This document shows positions 29,299 through 35,556 of a DNA stretch of 64,000 nucleotides, piece after piece (the stretch's first letter is position 1; each line of letters starts with the position of its first letter). The position numbers were made by a program, and so were the translations under genes. The notes below the pieces were generated by a model. It made no database searches, was not told the origin of the DNA, and saw nothing but the letters and a program-made list of their open reading frames with translations. Source of the stretch: Saccharothrix ecbatanensis (GTDB taxonomy: Bacteria > Actinomycetota > Actinomycetes > Mycobacteriales > Pseudonocardiaceae); NCBI RefSeq assembly GCF_014205015.1, contig NZ_JACHMO010000001.1, positions 4,712,001 through 4,776,000 on the forward strand. Reading direction: 5' to 3'.

Positions 29299-29494
29299 GC
29301 AACGCACCGTATCGACGCTCACCCCTCTTGACGATCGGCCAGGAAGGTGTCTAAACGTCGGATCATGGTCGCGCTGTGGTGATCTCGACCACGATCAGAC
29401 GGCGTTCGTGGACGCGCACGCGGGCCGCGCTGGTTCGTTCGCCGCAGGTCCGGGCCCTGCGGGTCGACCGCGAAAGGGTTGATCCGGACGATGT

Positions 29495-30253
29495 TCAGAA
29501 CCCGACGCTCAGGATCACCAGGTCGTCCGGCAGCAACCTGATCTCCACACCGGTGATGTCGGACCGTTGCAGCTCGGTCGTCGCGATGGGCCGGGTGGTG
29601 GAACCGGGCCCCGCGGTCCAGGTCGCCACGCGCACCGACGTGCCACCCGACACCAGCACGTGCAGGGCGTAGGCGAAGACGGGCGGCCGCGGGCCGTCCG
29701 ACGGCACGCGGTAGGAGCACAGCACCTCGATCCGGGTGCCCCACGGCTCGTCCAGCAGCTGGACGCTGGCCGTGACGGGGCTGGGCAGGGTCTGGCTCAT
29801 GATCACGTCCGGCGCGGTCGGGCTCGTCGTCACCGCCGTCGGGCTCGTCGTCACGTCCCGCACGGACGACGGCGACGGGTCCGGGTCCGCCGAGGTGTGG
29901 CGGCCGGCCGGACCCAGCGTCATCGCGCCCGCCGCCCCCAACAACGCCGCACCGACCAGCGCGGCGGCCAGCCACACCCTGGACCGCCTCCGCCTGACCC
30001 GCTCGACCACCGCCAGCCCGGCCAGCAGGTCCGGGGGCGGCTCCTCCGCCGCCGCGGGCCCCAGCAGGTCGAGCGCCCGGTCACGGGGCACGGCGGAGAG
30101 GATGCCGGGGACGCCCGCGAAGGAGGCCACGTCACCCGAGCACTCCTGGCACCCGGGCACGTGTCCCTCGAACTCCCGGCGCTCACCGGGAGACAGCGCA
30201 CCCATGACGTACGCGGCACCCCAGTCCCGGTACGGATCGACTGGCGAGCTCAC
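29495..30253 (-). CDS. Zinc-binding anti-sigma factor
   Basis: Membrane anti-sigma factor (252 residues). The N-terminal cytoplasmic ZAS motif is HVPGCQEC (HxxxCxxC) near residues 31-38. A single membrane helix lies at about 95-115, followed by a Thr/Ser/Pro-rich linker and an outer domain of about 100 residues that could sense an envelope signal. GTG 30253 overlaps the sigma factor stop, the usual sigma/anti-sigma coupling. Confidence 0.88.
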   Translation of the reverse strand: MSSPVDPYRDWGAAYVMGALSPGERREFEGHVPGCQECSGDVASFAGVPGILSAVPRDRALDLLGPAAAEEPPPDLLAGLAVVERVRRRRSRVWLAAALVGAALLGAAGAMTLGPAGRHTSADPDPSPSSVRDVTTSPTAVTTSPTAPDVIMSQTLPSPVTASVQLLDEPWGTRIEVLCSYRVPSDGPRPPVFAYALHVLVSGGTSVRVATWTAGPGSTTRPIATTELQRSDITGVEIRLLPDDLVILSVGF

Positions 30254-30759
30254 CGTCCGGTGACCCCCTTCTCCTCCAGTGCCAGCCGCAGCGCCCGCAG
30301 ACCGTAGTGCAGGCGGGATTTCACGGTTCCCTCCGGCAGGTCCAGTGCGGCGGCCAGCTCCGCGACGGACTGCCCCATGTAGTACGAACGTACGATCACC
30401 GTGCGGTGCTCCGGCGTCAACTGGGTGAGCACGTCGGCCACCAGCCACGCGTCGAGGGCCAACTCGCTCGGGTCGGACCAGGCCCGTTCCGGCAGCCGCT
30501 CCGACCCGATCTCCCAGCGTGCGCGAGCACTGCGGCGTTCGTCGATCACCACGTTGCGTGCGACGGTGTAGAGCCACGCGCGGGCGCCCGTCACACCCTG
30601 TTCTAGCACTTTCGGATTGCGCCACGCGCGCAGCAGGGTTTCCTGCACCACGTCGCGGGACAGCTCGTCGTCCCCCGTCAGCCGACGCACGTACCGCCAC
30701 AGCGCAGGAGCGTGCTCGTCGTGGAGAGCACGCAGCAATGTCGTGTGACTGTCCTTGAT
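30250..30759 (-). CDS. ECF-family RNA polymerase sigma factor
   Basis: ECF sigma factor with region 2 (LWRYVRRLTGDDELSRDVVQ and ARAWLYTVARNVVIDERR) and region 4 (LTPEHRTVIVRSYY, then SVAELAAALDLPEGTVKSRL). It is kept inactive by the coupled zinc anti-sigma factor. The first standard in-frame start is TTG 30738 without a good ribosome site. An ATC codon at 30759 has GAGGAGG at ideal distance (30766-30772) and gives a more complete N-terminus, so I list that position as likely but unusual. Confidence 0.82.
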   Translation of the reverse strand: MKDSHTTLLRALHDEHAPALWRYVRRLTGDDELSRDVVQETLLRAWRNPKVLEQGVTGARAWLYTVARNVVIDERRSARARWEIGSERLPERAWSDPSELALDAWLVADVLTQLTPEHRTVIVRSYYMGQSVAELAAALDLPEGTVKSRLHYGLRALRLALEEKGVTGR

Positions 30760-30774
30760 GGCGCACCTCCTCGG

Positions 30775-31617
30775 CTAGTCGTGGAACAGCGGTTCCCTGG
30801 TGGCGCCGGAGAGGGTCCTGCTGGGGAACGCGGGCGCGCGCTTGGCGAGGAAGGCCCCGGTCCCCTCGCGCATGTCGTCGGCGGTGAACGCCTCGCGGAA
30901 GGCGTCCAGTTCGACGGCCAGCCCGGCCTCGACGGTCCGGCCGCCGGCGCCGTTGACCGCGGCCTTGGCCAGCGACACCGCCGTCGCCGAGTTGCCCGCG
31001 ATCCGGCCGAGCACCTCGCGTGCGGCGGTCAGCATCTCATCGCGCCCGTCGAACACCGCGTTGACCAGTCCCAGCCGCTGGGCCTCCAGCGCGTCGACGT
31101 GCCTGCCGGTGTAGATCAGCTCGCGGGCGACGGCCGGTCCGACCAGGCGTTGGAGCCGGACGCACCCACCGAACCCCGGGACGAGGCCGAGCAGGACCTC
31201 CGGCTGGCCGAACACCGAACGGCGGGTGGCGTAGGCGAAGTCGCACGCCAGCACCATTTCGCAGCCGCCACCGAGCGCGTAGCCGTCCACGCACGCGACG
31301 ACCGGGCACGGAACTTCCTCCAGCAGCAGGGTGACCCGCTGCCCGAGGCGCCCGAACCGCTCGCCTTCGGCCGGTGTCATCGCGGCCATCTCCCGGATGT
31401 CGGCGCCGGCGATGAAAGCGGGACCGGGCGCGCCGGTCAGCATGATGCCGGCCGGTGCGCGGCCACCGGGGCGTGCGCCGCCGACGAGCACACCGGACAG
31501 GAAGTGGTCGAGTTCGGCGAGGACCCGGACGGACAGCGCGTTGCGCGCCGACGGCCGGGACACGGTGACCGTCGTGATGCCGGCCTCTTCTTCGACGAGC
31601 AAGGTCGAGTAGTCCAC
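30775..31617 (-). CDS. Enoyl-CoA hydratase/isomerase family protein
   Basis: Crotonase-fold protein (280 residues). Oxyanion-hole segments are FIAGADIREMA near 68-78 and YALGGGCEMVLACD near 113-126, the latter with the acidic position of hydratases. The C-terminus is complete. It is 10 bp after the membrane flavoprotein gene and 15 bp before the sigma factor, so it appears to be part of the same operon. Whether the substrate is a CoA thioester or an adenylated/aminoacyl product is unknown. Confidence 0.88.
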   Translation of the reverse strand: MDYSTLLVEEEAGITTVTVSRPSARNALSVRVLAELDHFLSGVLVGGARPGGRAPAGIMLTGAPGPAFIAGADIREMAAMTPAEGERFGRLGQRVTLLLEEVPCPVVACVDGYALGGGCEMVLACDFAYATRRSVFGQPEVLLGLVPGFGGCVRLQRLVGPAVARELIYTGRHVDALEAQRLGLVNAVFDGRDEMLTAAREVLGRIAGNSATAVSLAKAAVNGAGGRTVEAGLAVELDAFREAFTADDMREGTGAFLAKRAPAFPSRTLSGATREPLFHD

Positions 31618-31627
31618 GGAAGGCTCC

Positions 31628-32857
31628 TCACGAGTCCCAGATGGCGCCGAACGCGGGCACTCCCCGCGCCTCCAACTCCTCCACGACGTGCCACGTCGTC
31701 TTCTTGTTCGAGATGCAGATCACCGCTTCCGCGTCGAACTCCCGGCAGGCGCGCAGCGCCAGTTCGACCAAGTCGGGCTTGCCCTGCCCGACCGTGTCCC
31801 AGACCAGCGCATCCGGTTGCACGGCTTCGATCTCGTCCACGAGCTCGTCGCCGTAGGTGGCGCGTGGCGTGCGGGTGGACCACACCAGGCGCGACGGCGT
31901 CTCCTGCGACAGCAGGTGCGGCAGGCACGGCCCGATACCGCTGCCGGTGGCCACCCACACGACCCGGGTGAAGAGCTTGTCGATGTTGCCCACGCCCGCG
32001 GTGGGGACGCCCTTGACCCACAGGTGCGTAGGCATGTCGTCGATCAGCCTGCCGGTCCAGTCGCCCGCCCGGGAGATGGTCAGCCGGAACCCGGCGCGGC
32101 CCGGCGCAGGCACGTTGGCGAACGAGTGCCACTCCAGCAGCGGGTGGCGGCTCACCGCCGTGGAGGAACCCGCGAACGGCGTGACGCCGTAGTCGAACGA
32201 CACCAGGGCGACGTGCTTGGACGGTCGGACGATCCGCACCGGCACCCGGCGCAGCCGCGTCCACGGCAGGACGACGCTCGCCACCACCAGCAGGAGCAGC
32301 CAGAACTGGAGGGAGCCGACGAACCCGGGTTGGCGGGAGGAGTGGACGGCGAACAGCGCGAGCACGGTCCAGCCGGCGAACCGGTGCACTCGCTCGAACA
32401 CGTCGTGCCGCCGTGCCCGCAAGGTCGGCAGGGCGAACACGACCATCGCGACGAGCAGCCCGAGGATCGTCCACGTGAGCGGGTCGGCCAGGGCCCAGGC
32501 CAGCACGGCGAACCACGTGGTGGCGCAGAGTGCGGCACCGACGTGCAGGCCGCCGAAGTGGTAGACCTTGCCCAGCGTCCAGCGGACCCGCAGCGGCCAG
32601 GTCGTCGGCGCGCTGGTCGCGACCCGGAACAGCAGGTTGATCACGTGCTGCTGGCGGATCAGGACGGCGAGGGCGACGTTCGCCACGACCGCGTCTGAGA
32701 GCGCTCCCACCGACTCGATGCCGAACGCCGCGACGGCGTTGATCACGACCACCAGGGCGACGAGTCGGTTGTGGTGGGTGAACGGGCGGCGTCGGAGCGC
32801 GAGTGCGAGTCTGGTCTTGAGATGGGTGGACGGCTGGTCGGTGCGCGTGGTGCTCAT
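31628..32857 (-). CDS. Integral membrane flavoprotein reductase (TmpA-like)
   Basis: A 409-residue protein with about six membrane helices in residues 32-200 carrying several histidines (H29, H71, H100, H105, H158, H172) that could hold heme. A soluble ferredoxin-reductase-like part follows, with a flavin region near HPLLEWHSFANV (238-249) and an NAD(P) glycine motif WVATGSGIGPCLPHLL (301-316). The layout recalls ferric/NADPH-oxidase-like reductases and fungal TmpA, whose relative TmpB joins it to an adenylation domain. It overlaps the adenylation gene by 4 bp. Confidence 0.72.
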   Translation of the reverse strand: MSTTRTDQPSTHLKTRLALALRRRPFTHHNRLVALVVVINAVAAFGIESVGALSDAVVANVALAVLIRQQHVINLLFRVATSAPTTWPLRVRWTLGKVYHFGGLHVGAALCATTWFAVLAWALADPLTWTILGLLVAMVVFALPTLRARRHDVFERVHRFAGWTVLALFAVHSSRQPGFVGSLQFWLLLLVVASVVLPWTRLRRVPVRIVRPSKHVALVSFDYGVTPFAGSSTAVSRHPLLEWHSFANVPAPGRAGFRLTISRAGDWTGRLIDDMPTHLWVKGVPTAGVGNIDKLFTRVVWVATGSGIGPCLPHLLSQETPSRLVWSTRTPRATYGDELVDEIEAVQPDALVWDTVGQGKPDLVELALRACREFDAEAVICISNKKTTWHVVEELEARGVPAFGAIWDS

Positions 32858-34359
32858 GCGACCGGCACCAGCGAGGCCAGCGCGGCACGGTCCACTTTGC
32901 CCCGTTCGGTCACCGGCAGGTCGTCCACCGCGAGAACCCGTGACGGCACGCAGTAGTACGGCAAGCGGCGGGCGACGGCGTCCTTGGCGTCGCAAGGCGA
33001 GACGGTGGCGGGACTGACGAAACCGACGAGTTCGCCGTCGTGCAGAACGGCCGTGGCGCGGACACAGCCCGGGGCCGTCTCCAGGGCCGACGTGATGCCG
33101 TCCAGCTCGACCCGGAAGCCGCGGACCTTGACCTGGTCGTCCGTGCGGCCGTGGTGCTCCAGCTCGCCGTCGGGTGTCCAGCGGCCCAGGTCGCGGGTGC
33201 GGAACATCAGGTGGTCGCCGCCGCGGAACGGGTCGGGGCGGTACCGCTGGGCGGTCAGCACGTCGTTGCCCAGGTAGCCCGCCGTGACGCAGGCGCCGCC
33301 CGCCCACATCTCGCCGACCTCGCCGATCCGGCACGGCCGCAGGTTCTCGTCGAGCACGTAGACCGACGTGTTGGGCACCGGCCGGCCGATGGTCAGCCCA
33401 CCCGCGGCCGAGTCGTAGCGCTGCACCGTGTTGACGATGGCGACTTCCGTGGGGCCGCAGGCGTTGTGGAACGCGGCGCGGGCGGACCAGGCGTCGGCCA
33501 GCGGTTGGGGGCAGCGTTCCCCGGCGACCGCGACCACGCGCACGTCCGGACAGCCATCGGGGTCCACTGTGGACAGAACGCTGGGAGTGGCGATGAGGAC
33601 GGTGGCGGTTTCCGCCGTCCGTGCCGGGTCTTGACCGCGGATGACGCAGGTCGCGCCGTGGGTCAGCGCGCCGAAGACCTCCCACACCGCCATGTCGAAC
33701 GCGATGTTGAGCAGTTGCGCGACCCGGTCGCCCGGTCGGATGCCCAGCGAGCCCGGTTCGGTGAGCAGGACGTTGCACAGGTTCCCGTGGGTCACCAGGA
33801 CGCCGTTGGGGACGCCGGTCGTGCCGGAGGTGAAGATGACGACGGCGGTCTCGCCGTTGGCCGCCGGGCGGGGTGCGGGCGCTTCGCGGTCCGGGAGGGT
33901 GTCGAGCACCAGGACCGTGGCCGCGGTGACGGCGGACGAGTGTTCCTTCGTGGTGATCACGACGTCGATGTCCGCGGTGCGCATGACGTGGTCGAGGTGG
34001 TGCCGCGGCGTGATCCGCACGTCCTGCGGCACGTAGGCGGCGCCGGCCTTCAGCACCGCCAGCATGCCCACGACCATCGGGATCGAGCGGGTCAGGAACA
34101 ACCCGACGTGATCACCGGGGCGCACGCCCGCGTCGACGAGGGCGGCCGCGACGACGTTCGCGCGGTGGTCGAGTTCGCCGTAGGTGACGCAGTTGCCCTC
34201 GTGCTCGACCGCCCGCGCGCCCGGCGACCGTGCCGCGTGGACTTCGAACGCGTGGTGGATCCGCTGGAACGGCGGTGTGACGCTCGGTCCGTGGCCGAAC
34301 CGCCGGAACAGCGGACGATCATCCGGGGGCAGGCCTGATAAGGGGTTGGGCTCGGTCAT
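32854..34359 (-). CDS. Stand-alone NRPS-type amino acid adenylation protein
   Basis: AMP-forming adenylation enzyme (501 residues). Core motifs: A3 FTSGTTGVPNGV (176-187, the usual PKG lysine replaced by Asn), A4 AFDMAVWE with D222 where NRPS domains bind the alpha-amino group, A5 NACGPTE (299-305), RTRDLGRW, GRTDDQVKVRGFRVEL and the catalytic lysine in ERGKVDR. It looks active on an alpha-amino acid. There is no carrier domain, so the acyl-adenylate must be handed to another acceptor. First gene of the putative operon. Confidence 0.88.
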   Translation of the reverse strand: MTEPNPLSGLPPDDRPLFRRFGHGPSVTPPFQRIHHAFEVHAARSPGARAVEHEGNCVTYGELDHRANVVAAALVDAGVRPGDHVGLFLTRSIPMVVGMLAVLKAGAAYVPQDVRITPRHHLDHVMRTADIDVVITTKEHSSAVTAATVLVLDTLPDREAPAPRPAANGETAVVIFTSGTTGVPNGVLVTHGNLCNVLLTEPGSLGIRPGDRVAQLLNIAFDMAVWEVFGALTHGATCVIRGQDPARTAETATVLIATPSVLSTVDPDGCPDVRVVAVAGERCPQPLADAWSARAAFHNACGPTEVAIVNTVQRYDSAAGGLTIGRPVPNTSVYVLDENLRPCRIGEVGEMWAGGACVTAGYLGNDVLTAQRYRPDPFRGGDHLMFRTRDLGRWTPDGELEHHGRTDDQVKVRGFRVELDGITSALETAPGCVRATAVLHDGELVGFVSPATVSPCDAKDAVARRLPYYCVPSRVLAVDDLPVTERGKVDRAALASLVPVA

Positions 34360-34500
34360 GGCCGTCACAGGTCTTGCACCTCTCGTCCAGCCGGACACGG
34401 TCACCCGGTCTGAACGAGACAGCCCCATCAGCCGTTCAAGCTGCGCCCAAAAATGTTTGAAATTTCTCCAAGTTTTCCGACGAGCGCCCGGACCTCGGTG

Positions 34501-34611
34501 TCGAACACACCGGCCCGGCGCATCGAACACCGAGGACCGGCGTATCGAGCACTCAGGACATTCGAGTCGAACGCTCCGGATGCGACAGTCGAACGGACCG
34601 CTCGCGGCTCA
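34501..34611. repeat. 22-bp tandem array ending on the alpha/beta hydrolase stop codon
   Basis: Five consecutive units beginning TCGARC start at 34501, 34523, 34545, 34567 and 34589, exactly 22 bp apart. The last unit ends with TCA at 34609-34611, the hydrolase stop codon on the reverse strand. Units have diverged but the period is exact. The array fills much of the space between the hydrolase and the adenylation gene. Confidence 0.82.
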
Positions 34612-35511
34612 CGGTGTCGGGACGGGCGGGTGGACGCGGTCCAGGAAGTCCCGCACCAGGGCGACGACCTCGTCGAGGTTGGTCTCCAACGCCCAATGCC
34701 CGCCGTCGAGGAGGTGCACCTCGGCGTCCGGAAGGTCGCGGAGGTAGGCCCGTGCGGCGCCCGCCGGCATGTAGCCGTCGTGCGGACCCCACACGATCAG
34801 CGTCGGCGGTCGGTGCTCACGCAGGTAGGCCTGCTGGCGGTCGAACCAGTCGAGGGTGCTGCCCTGGTCGGCGAGCAGGTGGACCAGGTTCCGCCGCCGC
34901 TCCGGGGTGCCGAGCTGCGACCAGGACAACGTCCACAGGTCGGGGCAGACCCGGTCGACCAGCCGTTCGGGTACCTCGCCGACGAACTCGTCGCGGAAGC
35001 CCTCCGCGCTGACCGCGGCGTCGATCTTGGCCCGGCCCTCGGCGGTCGGGTTGGCCCAGTACTCCTTGAGCGGCCGGTACTTCGGGCCGTGCTGGTCTTC
35101 GTAGATGTCGCCGTTCTGGATGATGAGCGCGACGACCCGCCCGGGTGCGTGCATGGCGAGCCGGAGCCCGAACTGCGAGCCGTAGTCGTGCAGGTAGATG
35201 GCGTACCGGGTCAGGTCGGCCGCGGCGGTGAACCGCTGCAAGAACTCGGCGTACGCGTCGAACGTGTAGGCGAAGCGGGTCCGGTCCGGCGTGCCGCTGT
35301 ACCCGAAGCCGGGGTAGTCGGGCGCGATCAGGCGCCACCGGTCGCCGAGCGCGGCCATGAGGTTGCGGTACTGGAACGACGAGCAGGGGTAGCCGTGCGG
35401 CAACAGCACCACCGGGGCGTCCGGCGGCCCGGCCTCGCGGTAGAAGATGTCGGTTCCGTCGACCGTCATCATCCTGTGGGCCACCGGGGCGGGGATGTTC
35501 GACGACGTCAT
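34609..35511 (-). CDS. Alpha/beta hydrolase, epoxide hydrolase/dehalogenase-like
   Basis: Alpha/beta-hydrolase-fold enzyme (300 residues). The nucleophile elbow reads HDYGSQFG, placing an Asp where epoxide hydrolases and haloalkane dehalogenases have theirs. LLPHGYPCSSFQYR is the oxyanion region and GGHWALE carries the catalytic His. The substrate is unknown. It is upstream of, and separated by a repeat-filled gap from, the adenylation operon. Confidence 0.85.
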   Translation of the reverse strand: MTSSNIPAPVAHRMMTVDGTDIFYREAGPPDAPVVLLPHGYPCSSFQYRNLMAALGDRWRLIAPDYPGFGYSGTPDRTRFAYTFDAYAEFLQRFTAAADLTRYAIYLHDYGSQFGLRLAMHAPGRVVALIIQNGDIYEDQHGPKYRPLKEYWANPTAEGRAKIDAAVSAEGFRDEFVGEVPERLVDRVCPDLWTLSWSQLGTPERRRNLVHLLADQGSTLDWFDRQQAYLREHRPPTLIVWGPHDGYMPAGAARAYLRDLPDAEVHLLDGGHWALETNLDEVVALVRDFLDRVHPPVPTP

Positions 35512-35556
35512 ACCTGCCCGGTTACACGCGGAGGTTCGAAGTAAACGTCCGCGTGG

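Follow-up and report, generated by a model that had tools for sequence, protein, structure and literature searches.

A probable split bacterial counterpart of fungal TmpB under a putative sigma switch in Saccharothrix ecbatanensis

The locus analysed here lies in a 64,000-nucleotide stretch of the genome of the soil bacterium Saccharothrix ecbatanensis (assembly GCF_014205015.1, contig NZ_JACHMO010000001.1, positions 4,712,001 to 4,776,000 of the forward strand; hereafter the window), in which positions 29495-34359 are filled by five minus-strand genes for an adenylation protein (Adn), a membrane flavoprotein reductase (Red), a crotonase (Cro), a sigma factor (Sig) and an anti-sigma factor (Anti). 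The question raised by this operon is whether it represents the bacterial form of Aspergillus TmpB, a protein with a part in spore formation, for which substrate and product were proposed only as hypotheses in 2016 (PMC4804170), and what the regulatory pair contributes. Sequence comparisons support the reading of the operon as a split bacterial counterpart of fungal TmpB, and we consider it quite probable that it is a TmpB-type cassette under an actinobacterial sigma switch that works by the full mechanism proposed below. The features of the operon, in window coordinates, are as follows.

32854..34359, minus strand: Adn, stand-alone amino-acid adenylation protein, 501 amino acids (aa), pocket code DMWIAAAIVK; GTG 34366-34368 is an alternative start
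31628..32857, minus strand: Red, TmpA-like membrane flavin adenine dinucleotide (FAD)/NAD(P) reductase, 409 aa, NADPH oxidase (NOX)-like fold
30775..31617, minus strand: Cro, crotonase, 280 aa, clade CroA, hydratase glutamates in GGGCE and FGQPE
30250..30759, minus strand: Sig, SigL-type extracytoplasmic function (ECF) sigma factor, 169 aa, inferred start ATC 30757-30759
29495..30253, minus strand: Anti, RslA-like zinc anti-sigma factor, 252 aa, single hydrophobic helix
30140..30163, minus strand: zinc motif HX3CX2C of Anti (HVPGCQEC)
34413..34438, minus strand: putative SigL-type promoter TGAAC-N16-TCGTT before Adn, from motif conservation
30766..30772, minus strand: Shine-Dalgarno-like GAGGAGG, 6 bases 5' of the Sig ATC

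The five genes proposed in an earlier note on this DNA are real and tightly packed, as domain searches and the conservation of gene order agree. Adn and Red overlap by 4 bp (ATGA), as do Sig and Anti (GTGA), with gaps of 10 bp between Red and Cro and of 15 bp between Cro and Sig if Sig starts at ATC 30759. To define which of these genes belong together, the GTDB species collection was scanned with a Red alignment, giving 203 encoding stretches, the best 80 of which, with organism names, were analysed as the "80 loci". These span Actinomycetota, Chloroflexota, Bacteroidota and Pseudomonadota. The co-occurrence of adenylation and TmpA-like genes, which had been put forward as a check, was confirmed in these closest loci: 79 of the 80 have Adn upstream of Red in the same orientation, and the exception (L081) begins at the contig start. 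A crotonase lies downstream of Red in 75 of the 80, the five loci without one being L061 (at a contig end), two from Crossiella and two from Kribbella. The wider idea of a five-gene unit stands in part: Adn, Red and Cro recur, whereas a sigma gene was found in only 29/80 loci and an anti-sigma gene in 27/80. The cassette is Adn, Red and Cro, and the sigma/anti-sigma pair is a SigL/RslA-type add-on.

This arrangement was also seen in genome draws, in which the centre genome was counted each time. Carriers numbered 38/249 in the window's family, 4/299 in the Aquimarina family, 2/301 in the phylum of a Chloroflexota carrier and 3/396 in the window's phylum, so that the distribution of the cassette is patchy. 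Adn stood beside Red on the same strand in 36/36 draw loci and Cro was present in 31/36, these loci being the 30 top-ranking places from the family draw (window included) together with all six from the Aquimarina and Chloroflexota draws, three of which belong to genomes that the set of 80 already contains. Ten carrier genomes each gave one Adn-type match at E 1e-100 or better. Chance or generic clustering of the genes was considered and is excluded by the gene order conserved across the 80 loci and the 36 draw loci. A Pfam scan of 50 downstream and 53 upstream neighbour proteins, hand-picked from 89 and 92 called at 47 loci, revealed no conserved fourth cassette gene among the families listed (25 of 36 and 25 of 70, sorted by member number).

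The adenylation part matches the fungal one in its architecture. Adn scored 346 bits against TIGR01733 (cut-off 317), AMP-binding was its sole Pfam match, and no carrier or condensation domain was found in it by Pfam-A and NCBIfam scans; an adenylation (A) domain without thiolation or condensation domain also occurs in seven fungal and bacterial relatives. Red is a six-helix TmpA-like FAD/NAD(P) domain encoded by a separate gene that overlaps Adn. The window therefore resembles Aspergillus nidulans TmpB, TmpL and ChNPS12, in which a carrier-less A domain of the nonribosomal peptide synthetase type is followed by a six-helix FAD/NAD(P) domain, and it resembles TmpB further in having an enoyl-CoA hydratase gene next door, since such a gene adjoins Aspergillus tmpB (PMC4804170) where the window has Cro. 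It differs from all three in having two genes, a sigma/anti-sigma switch and no known developmental role; being split rather than a single fused polypeptide, it would be a counterpart and not TmpB itself.

Fused forms nevertheless exist in bacteria, as Adn and Red form one open frame of ~1000 residues in six of the 80 loci, all Bacteroidota. Among the best 120 matches to one such fused protein were fungal proteins bearing the name "nonribosomal peptide synthetase 12", with identities of 43-50%; some matched near full length and others over about half the length in the best local alignment. Window Adn is 48-49% and Red 43-47% identical to the single-A-domain basidiomycete proteins P0218, P0220 and P0225, and mostly 44-47% and 40-43%, respectively, to five two-A-domain fungal proteins, one with a short reductase match only; these identities come from basidiomycete proteins, the ascomycete TmpB, TmpL and ChNPS12 being likened by description. 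In the Red tree, 13 fungal rows and one other row form one supported group, with a bootstrap that is not fully settled and an arbitrary root. Because homology extends over both parts, bacterial fused forms occur and the crotonase parallels the tmpB neighbour, the suggestion of a split TmpB counterpart made in the earlier note is strengthened. On the fungal side, P0150, P0153, P0184, P0194 and P0214 (Hypsizygus, Lyophyllum, Tricholoma, Sphagnurus, Asterophora) were seen to carry two A domains before the reductase domain, one A domain being partial in some and the reductase domain partial in P0214.

The likely substrate was approached through the binding pocket. Read by the convention that reproduces the published Sare0718 code, the ten pocket residues of window Adn are DMWIAAAIVK, identical to that code. 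Sare0718 of Salinispora arenicola is a stand-alone A domain that activates L-alanine, and its neighbours are given as an enoyl-CoA hydratase (sare0716), a hypothetical protein (sare0717) and a phosphopantetheinyl transferase (sare0719) in the excerpted text of PMC3360062. The window shares with it the stand-alone A domain, the code and the enoyl-CoA hydratase and hypothetical-protein neighbours; it differs in that the other neighbour of Sare0718 is the 4'-phosphopantetheinyl transferase and in that no sigma pair is mentioned in those excerpts. No Salinispora homologue was named among the best 120 matches of a search aimed at one, so Sare0718 is linked to the cassette by code and gene neighbours only. 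Setting position 322 aside, 54 of 65 rows, bacterial and fungal, carry the same nine pocket residues; of the 11 that deviate, ten do so by I/V or M/L exchanges and one also by A to I. The fungal enzymes may thus share the substrate, position 322 being a reservation. The earlier expectation of an amino-acid-derived product is borne out for the activation step, through the L-alanine activity of Sare0718 and the same pocket code. The signalling role suggested for that product is conjectural; the cassette is found in Chloroflexota and Bacteroidota as well.

The claim that no such bacterial system had been described holds for one part and falls for another. No paper on a bacterial TmpB-type operon was found by title or abstract in the open-licence literature, and the excerpts of PMC3360062 and PMC2823734 do not present the membrane reductase as belonging to a system. 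The A domain of an apparent cassette had, however, already been assayed (PMC3360062, 2012), and a 2010 phylogeny had put bacterial stand-alone A domains from Hahella and Salinispora into the ChNPS12 clade, as far as the excerpts of PMC2823734 go.

Red itself gave no Pfam-A or NCBIfam match at E 0.001, and its best Pfam match at a threshold of E 10 was NAD_binding_1 (E 0.23); a precomputed label, PF26733, naming a family outside the Pfam library searched, is attached to it. Its closest solved folds are NADPH oxidases (SpNOX, NOX2), at 10-15% identity in the alignments. The NADPH oxidase/ferric reductase superfamily has two heme-histidine pairs, 13-14 residues apart, in transmembrane helices 3 and 5 (TM3 and TM5). 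Red shares the fold of membrane helices and an FAD/NAD(P) domain but not the two pairs: H100, H105, H151 and H158 are invariant, H172 is a histidine in 28/46, and window Red has no TM3 histidine 13-14 residues after H105. Judged by histidine conservation, on which heme placement rests, this set would be compatible with one inner heme only. A predicted model of fused Adn-Red reached a predicted template modelling score (pTM) of 0.55, so its domain arrangement was not used. As for Cro, both syn-hydratase glutamates, in GGGCE and FGQPE (FAQPE once) at positions that we take to be catalytic, are present in all 28 cassette crotonases read. In L099, L100, L101 and L103, which come from genomes of Kribbella and Crossiella, the crotonase branches as sister to clade CroB.

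The regulatory pair is of the SigL-RslA type. Sig scored 219 bits against NF007227 (cut-off 202), with SigL (6dv9) as its best solved relative; Anti scored 24 bits against zf-HC2 (cut-off 22), with 3hug chain B, presumably RslA, as its best solved match. Among the 79 loci with Adn, the motif TGAAC-N16-TCGTT precedes Adn in 28 of 29 sigma-bearing loci and in 0/50 without sigma, the sole motif-less sigma locus (L033) having only 15 bases of upstream sequence. The motif was first noticed in these same loci, for which the 0/50 and 200 shuffles, none of which gave it, serve as controls; the first comparison set 27/29 sigma loci and the window against 18/51 others and was then repeated on the 79. 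The window holds one exact match against 0.03 expected, and the 9.69-Mb genome holds six against one for the reversed control, which suggests that the Sig regulon is likely narrow. The zinc motif HX3CX2C was present in 25/25 anti-sigma proteins read, one from the window and the others from 24 of the 27 loci where an anti-sigma gene was detected; in L053 and L041 the reading frame seems to be disrupted towards the end. Sig and Anti are thus like Mycobacterium tuberculosis SigL-RslA (6dv9, 3hug), including the zinc motif HXXXCXXC (PMC2877774); they are unlike it in standing beside a TmpB-type cassette, in the ATC start codon and in an outer part of Anti that is not conserved. In L022, a locus labelled Rhodococcus rhodnii in a 12.4-Mb genome, a further SigL/RslA-like pair sits a short way upstream of the cassette. 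The cassette proteins of this locus cluster with those of Kibdelosporangium/Solihabitans or of Kribbella, and the label may be wrong.

The start of Sig was compared across 30 genes (29 sigma loci and the window). The aligned start codon is ATC in 24, ATC one codon further on in two, ATG in two and GTG in two; in the window the next canonical in-frame start is a TTG seven codons on. Eighteen of the 26 ATC genes have an in-frame stop 4-6 codons upstream with no ATG, GTG or TTG between, and their next ATG, GTG or TTG lies at +23 or later in nine and at +7 or +8 in nine. For comparison, the 30 best SigL-type genes of 120 family genomes were examined, some alignments being extended ungapped to the first codon: in all 22 without Red in the flank examined, ATG or GTG stands at the aligned codon or at the preceding one, whereas the eight with Red have ATC in five (one offset by one codon; window included) and GTG in three. 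These observations suggest that the ATC start is a feature of cassette-borne sigma genes. AUC is a very rare start codon, at which initiation is inefficient and is checked by initiation factor 3 (IF3), so Sig would stay below its anti-sigma factor. No paper on an AUC start codon with a sigma factor was found in the open-licence literature, and to our knowledge a conserved AUC start restraining translation would be a level of control not met for any sigma factor. It should be noted that the Anti frame is open backwards across the whole Sig gene (423 codons from GTG 30766, window 29495-30766), and an automatic gene caller could misplace the Anti start, given this open frame through Sig.

In the mechanism that we propose, Adn would make L-alanyl-AMP from L-alanine and ATP, a step shown for the same-code protein and predicted here. 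Without a carrier protein, the activated alanine or a derived product would pass to Red, which, with its NOX fold, would relay electrons among NAD(P)H, FAD and what is probably a single inner heme, and would carry out a redox modification of the substrate, or of a partner, on the cytosolic side. Cro would hydrate an unsaturated acyl intermediate, or attach another nucleophile to it, and so yield a small metabolite derived from alanine. Conserved sequence points to a circuit in which Sig would drive its own operon from the TGAAC-N16-TCGTT promoter, Anti would hold Sig by means of a zinc domain resembling the one in redox-sensitive RslA, and the AUC start would keep Sig scarce relative to Anti, restraining a self-activating loop. 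More tentatively, as a broader proposal that is possible yet leaves room for considerable doubt, the three-enzyme pathway of L-alanine activation, membrane redox and crotonase chemistry would be common to at least four bacterial phyla and fungi, and in actinobacteria its control would fall to a sigma factor that activates its own operon, is released by a redox change and has its translation restrained by a conserved AUC start.

Other explanations of the operon place its purpose in redox balance, iron, or the cell envelope. Red could mainly be a NOX-like oxidase or electron valve serving redox homeostasis or reactive oxygen species, with Adn regulating or anchoring it as suggested for TmpL. The NOX folds closest to Red, the redox phenotypes of tmpL mutants (excerpts of PMC2766074) and the oxidation response of RslA (excerpts of PMC2877774) favour such a role, but we judge it unlikely: H172 varies and the TM3 partner of H105 is missing, so the outer oxidase heme is probably lost, and the Adn pocket code is largely conserved across kingdoms while the crotonase keeps company. 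That Red is a ferric or ferric-siderophore reductase and that Adn feeds a small alanine-containing chelator is decidedly improbable. It draws on two stand-alone relatives, one (L138) adjoining an isochorismate synthase-like gene and an AMP ligase and the other on a Pantoea plasmid with siderophore genes 5-8 kb away, whereas stand-alone relatives have other neighbours too and no siderophore family was matched by two or more of the scanned cassette neighbours.

Two explanations involve the envelope. Least probable of all is a Dlt-like alanylation, in which Adn would activate alanine, possibly D-alanine, for transfer to an envelope polymer; Sare0718 does use alanine (PMC3360062, in excerpt) and several homologues are named D-alanine--poly(phosphoribitol) ligase by one source, but the DltA model TIGR01734 scores only 162 bits against a cut-off of 560, no carrier-protein family was matched by at least two of the scanned neighbours, Red has a NOX fold and the fungal NPS12 A-domain code is nearly the same. 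Only marginally better placed, and very improbable in our view, is an envelope-stress operon in which the outer domain of Anti would monitor the cell surface, envelope sensing by the anti-sigma factor having been proposed in the earlier note. In its favour, the ~140 Anti residues beyond the helix are 68-74% identical in five of six congeneric loci. The sixth congener shows 25%, however, the outer part is missing or not alignable in other genera, and the Lentzea proteins have 97-111 residues and stop at the membrane helix or shortly after it, so that across genera only the zinc domain is kept and the claim of envelope sensing is not sustained. RslA loses its affinity for its sigma factor on oxidation (PMC2877774, in excerpt); with the zinc motif kept and the outer part not, a cytosolic redox signal is the better guess for the cue of Anti, ahead of the envelope.

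Several points weigh against the TmpB-type cassette and its proposed L-alanine pathway. The 80 loci, chosen by two peptide patterns, are the closest relatives and so form a biased sample. Cro is missing at its position in the Crossiella and Kribbella loci named above and in 5/36 draw loci, and L153 has Adn without adjoining Cro. Twelve more divergent Red places of the family draw (32-52% identical) have no adjoining Adn of this type, which indicates that a second, stand-alone Red group exists and that Red-type proteins also work without Adn; fungi are alike in this respect, with TmpA beside TmpB. The hydratase glutamates suggest a coenzyme A (CoA) ester, yet the cassette comes without a separate CoA ligase or carrier. 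The Sare0718 assay was confined to the 20 proteinogenic amino acids, and its authors warn that the enzyme could use another substrate in vivo (excerpts of PMC3360062); that sare0716-0718 is such a cassette is inferred from code and gene neighbours. The exact ten-letter code occurs in 14/51 bacterial and 0/14 fungal rows, being scarce because position 322 varies (A, S, C or G). The start codon of Sig seems to be ATC from the DNA only, and 8/26 ATC genes have a canonical in-frame start further upstream, lying at a distance of at least 12 codons in seven and of just two codons in L044. No biochemistry was found for Red or Cro of a bacterial cassette in the open-licence literature.

The surroundings of the operon were compared with those in eight congeners in which Red was not found, and one further feature was delimited.

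29323..35556: extra segment with the five genes and an alpha/beta hydrolase (34609-35511), between an XRE-type regulator gene and a HIT-family gene

XRE adjoins PgsA in 8/8 of these congeners, and in 4/8 a HIT match follows 184-310 bp beyond XRE; the other four gave no HIT match within the ~590 bases covered, where something else may sit. The segment is extra relative to the congeners read and may reflect insertion here or loss there. Elsewhere, recurrent neighbours among the families listed were molybdopterin oxidoreductase (11 upstream), DUF218 and CbiX (11 and 10 downstream), TetR (3) and a few two-member families; phosphopantetheinyl transferase was not among them, though one adjoins Sare0718. 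Streptomyces cassettes (L079, L084, L090 and the like) apparently lie between molybdopterin oxidoreductase and DUF218-type genes, as if at one shared site, an assignment that rests per locus on size, strand and comparison of downstream proteins; nine proteins encoded downstream in Streptomyces loci share 76-93% identity with one another. A DUF6733-type gene follows the crotonase of Bacteroidota cassettes in L047, L064, L078, L086 and L087, by Pfam match for L078 and by homology for the other four.

Further Red-like genes were seen outside such cassettes. On cyanobacterial plasmids of Calothrix (L106 6475-9078) and Fischerella (L107 7845-10560), a distant Red-like gene at 27-29% identity is followed by a gene of ~415 codons, in Calothrix an HlyD-type membrane fusion protein. 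A class-V aminotransferase gene is overlapped by a stand-alone Red in L147 (5445-8248). The stand-alone Red of L138 (6937-11955) lies beside the chorismate-binding gene and AMP ligase mentioned above, in what looks like a siderophore locus, and that of the Pantoea piersonii plasmid (L105 8968-10143) has a major facilitator superfamily transporter upstream.

Overall, the comparison with TmpB is stronger than the earlier note knew, the family being a known one and its regulation the new element; the promoter, the ATC codon and the absence of the segment in congeners are additions to that note. TmpL orthologues are said, in the excerpts of PMC2766074, to occur only in filamentous fungi, in contrast to the bacterial operon of the same parts found here. 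A conserved AUC start with ATG or GTG orthologues at the same place would offer a clean case for initiation-codon control of a regulator. A bacterial operon with the same parts, a predicted L-alanine substrate and a predicted switch makes the question of the TmpB product testable and, if the proposed reading is true, the product of TmpB can be sought in bacteria.

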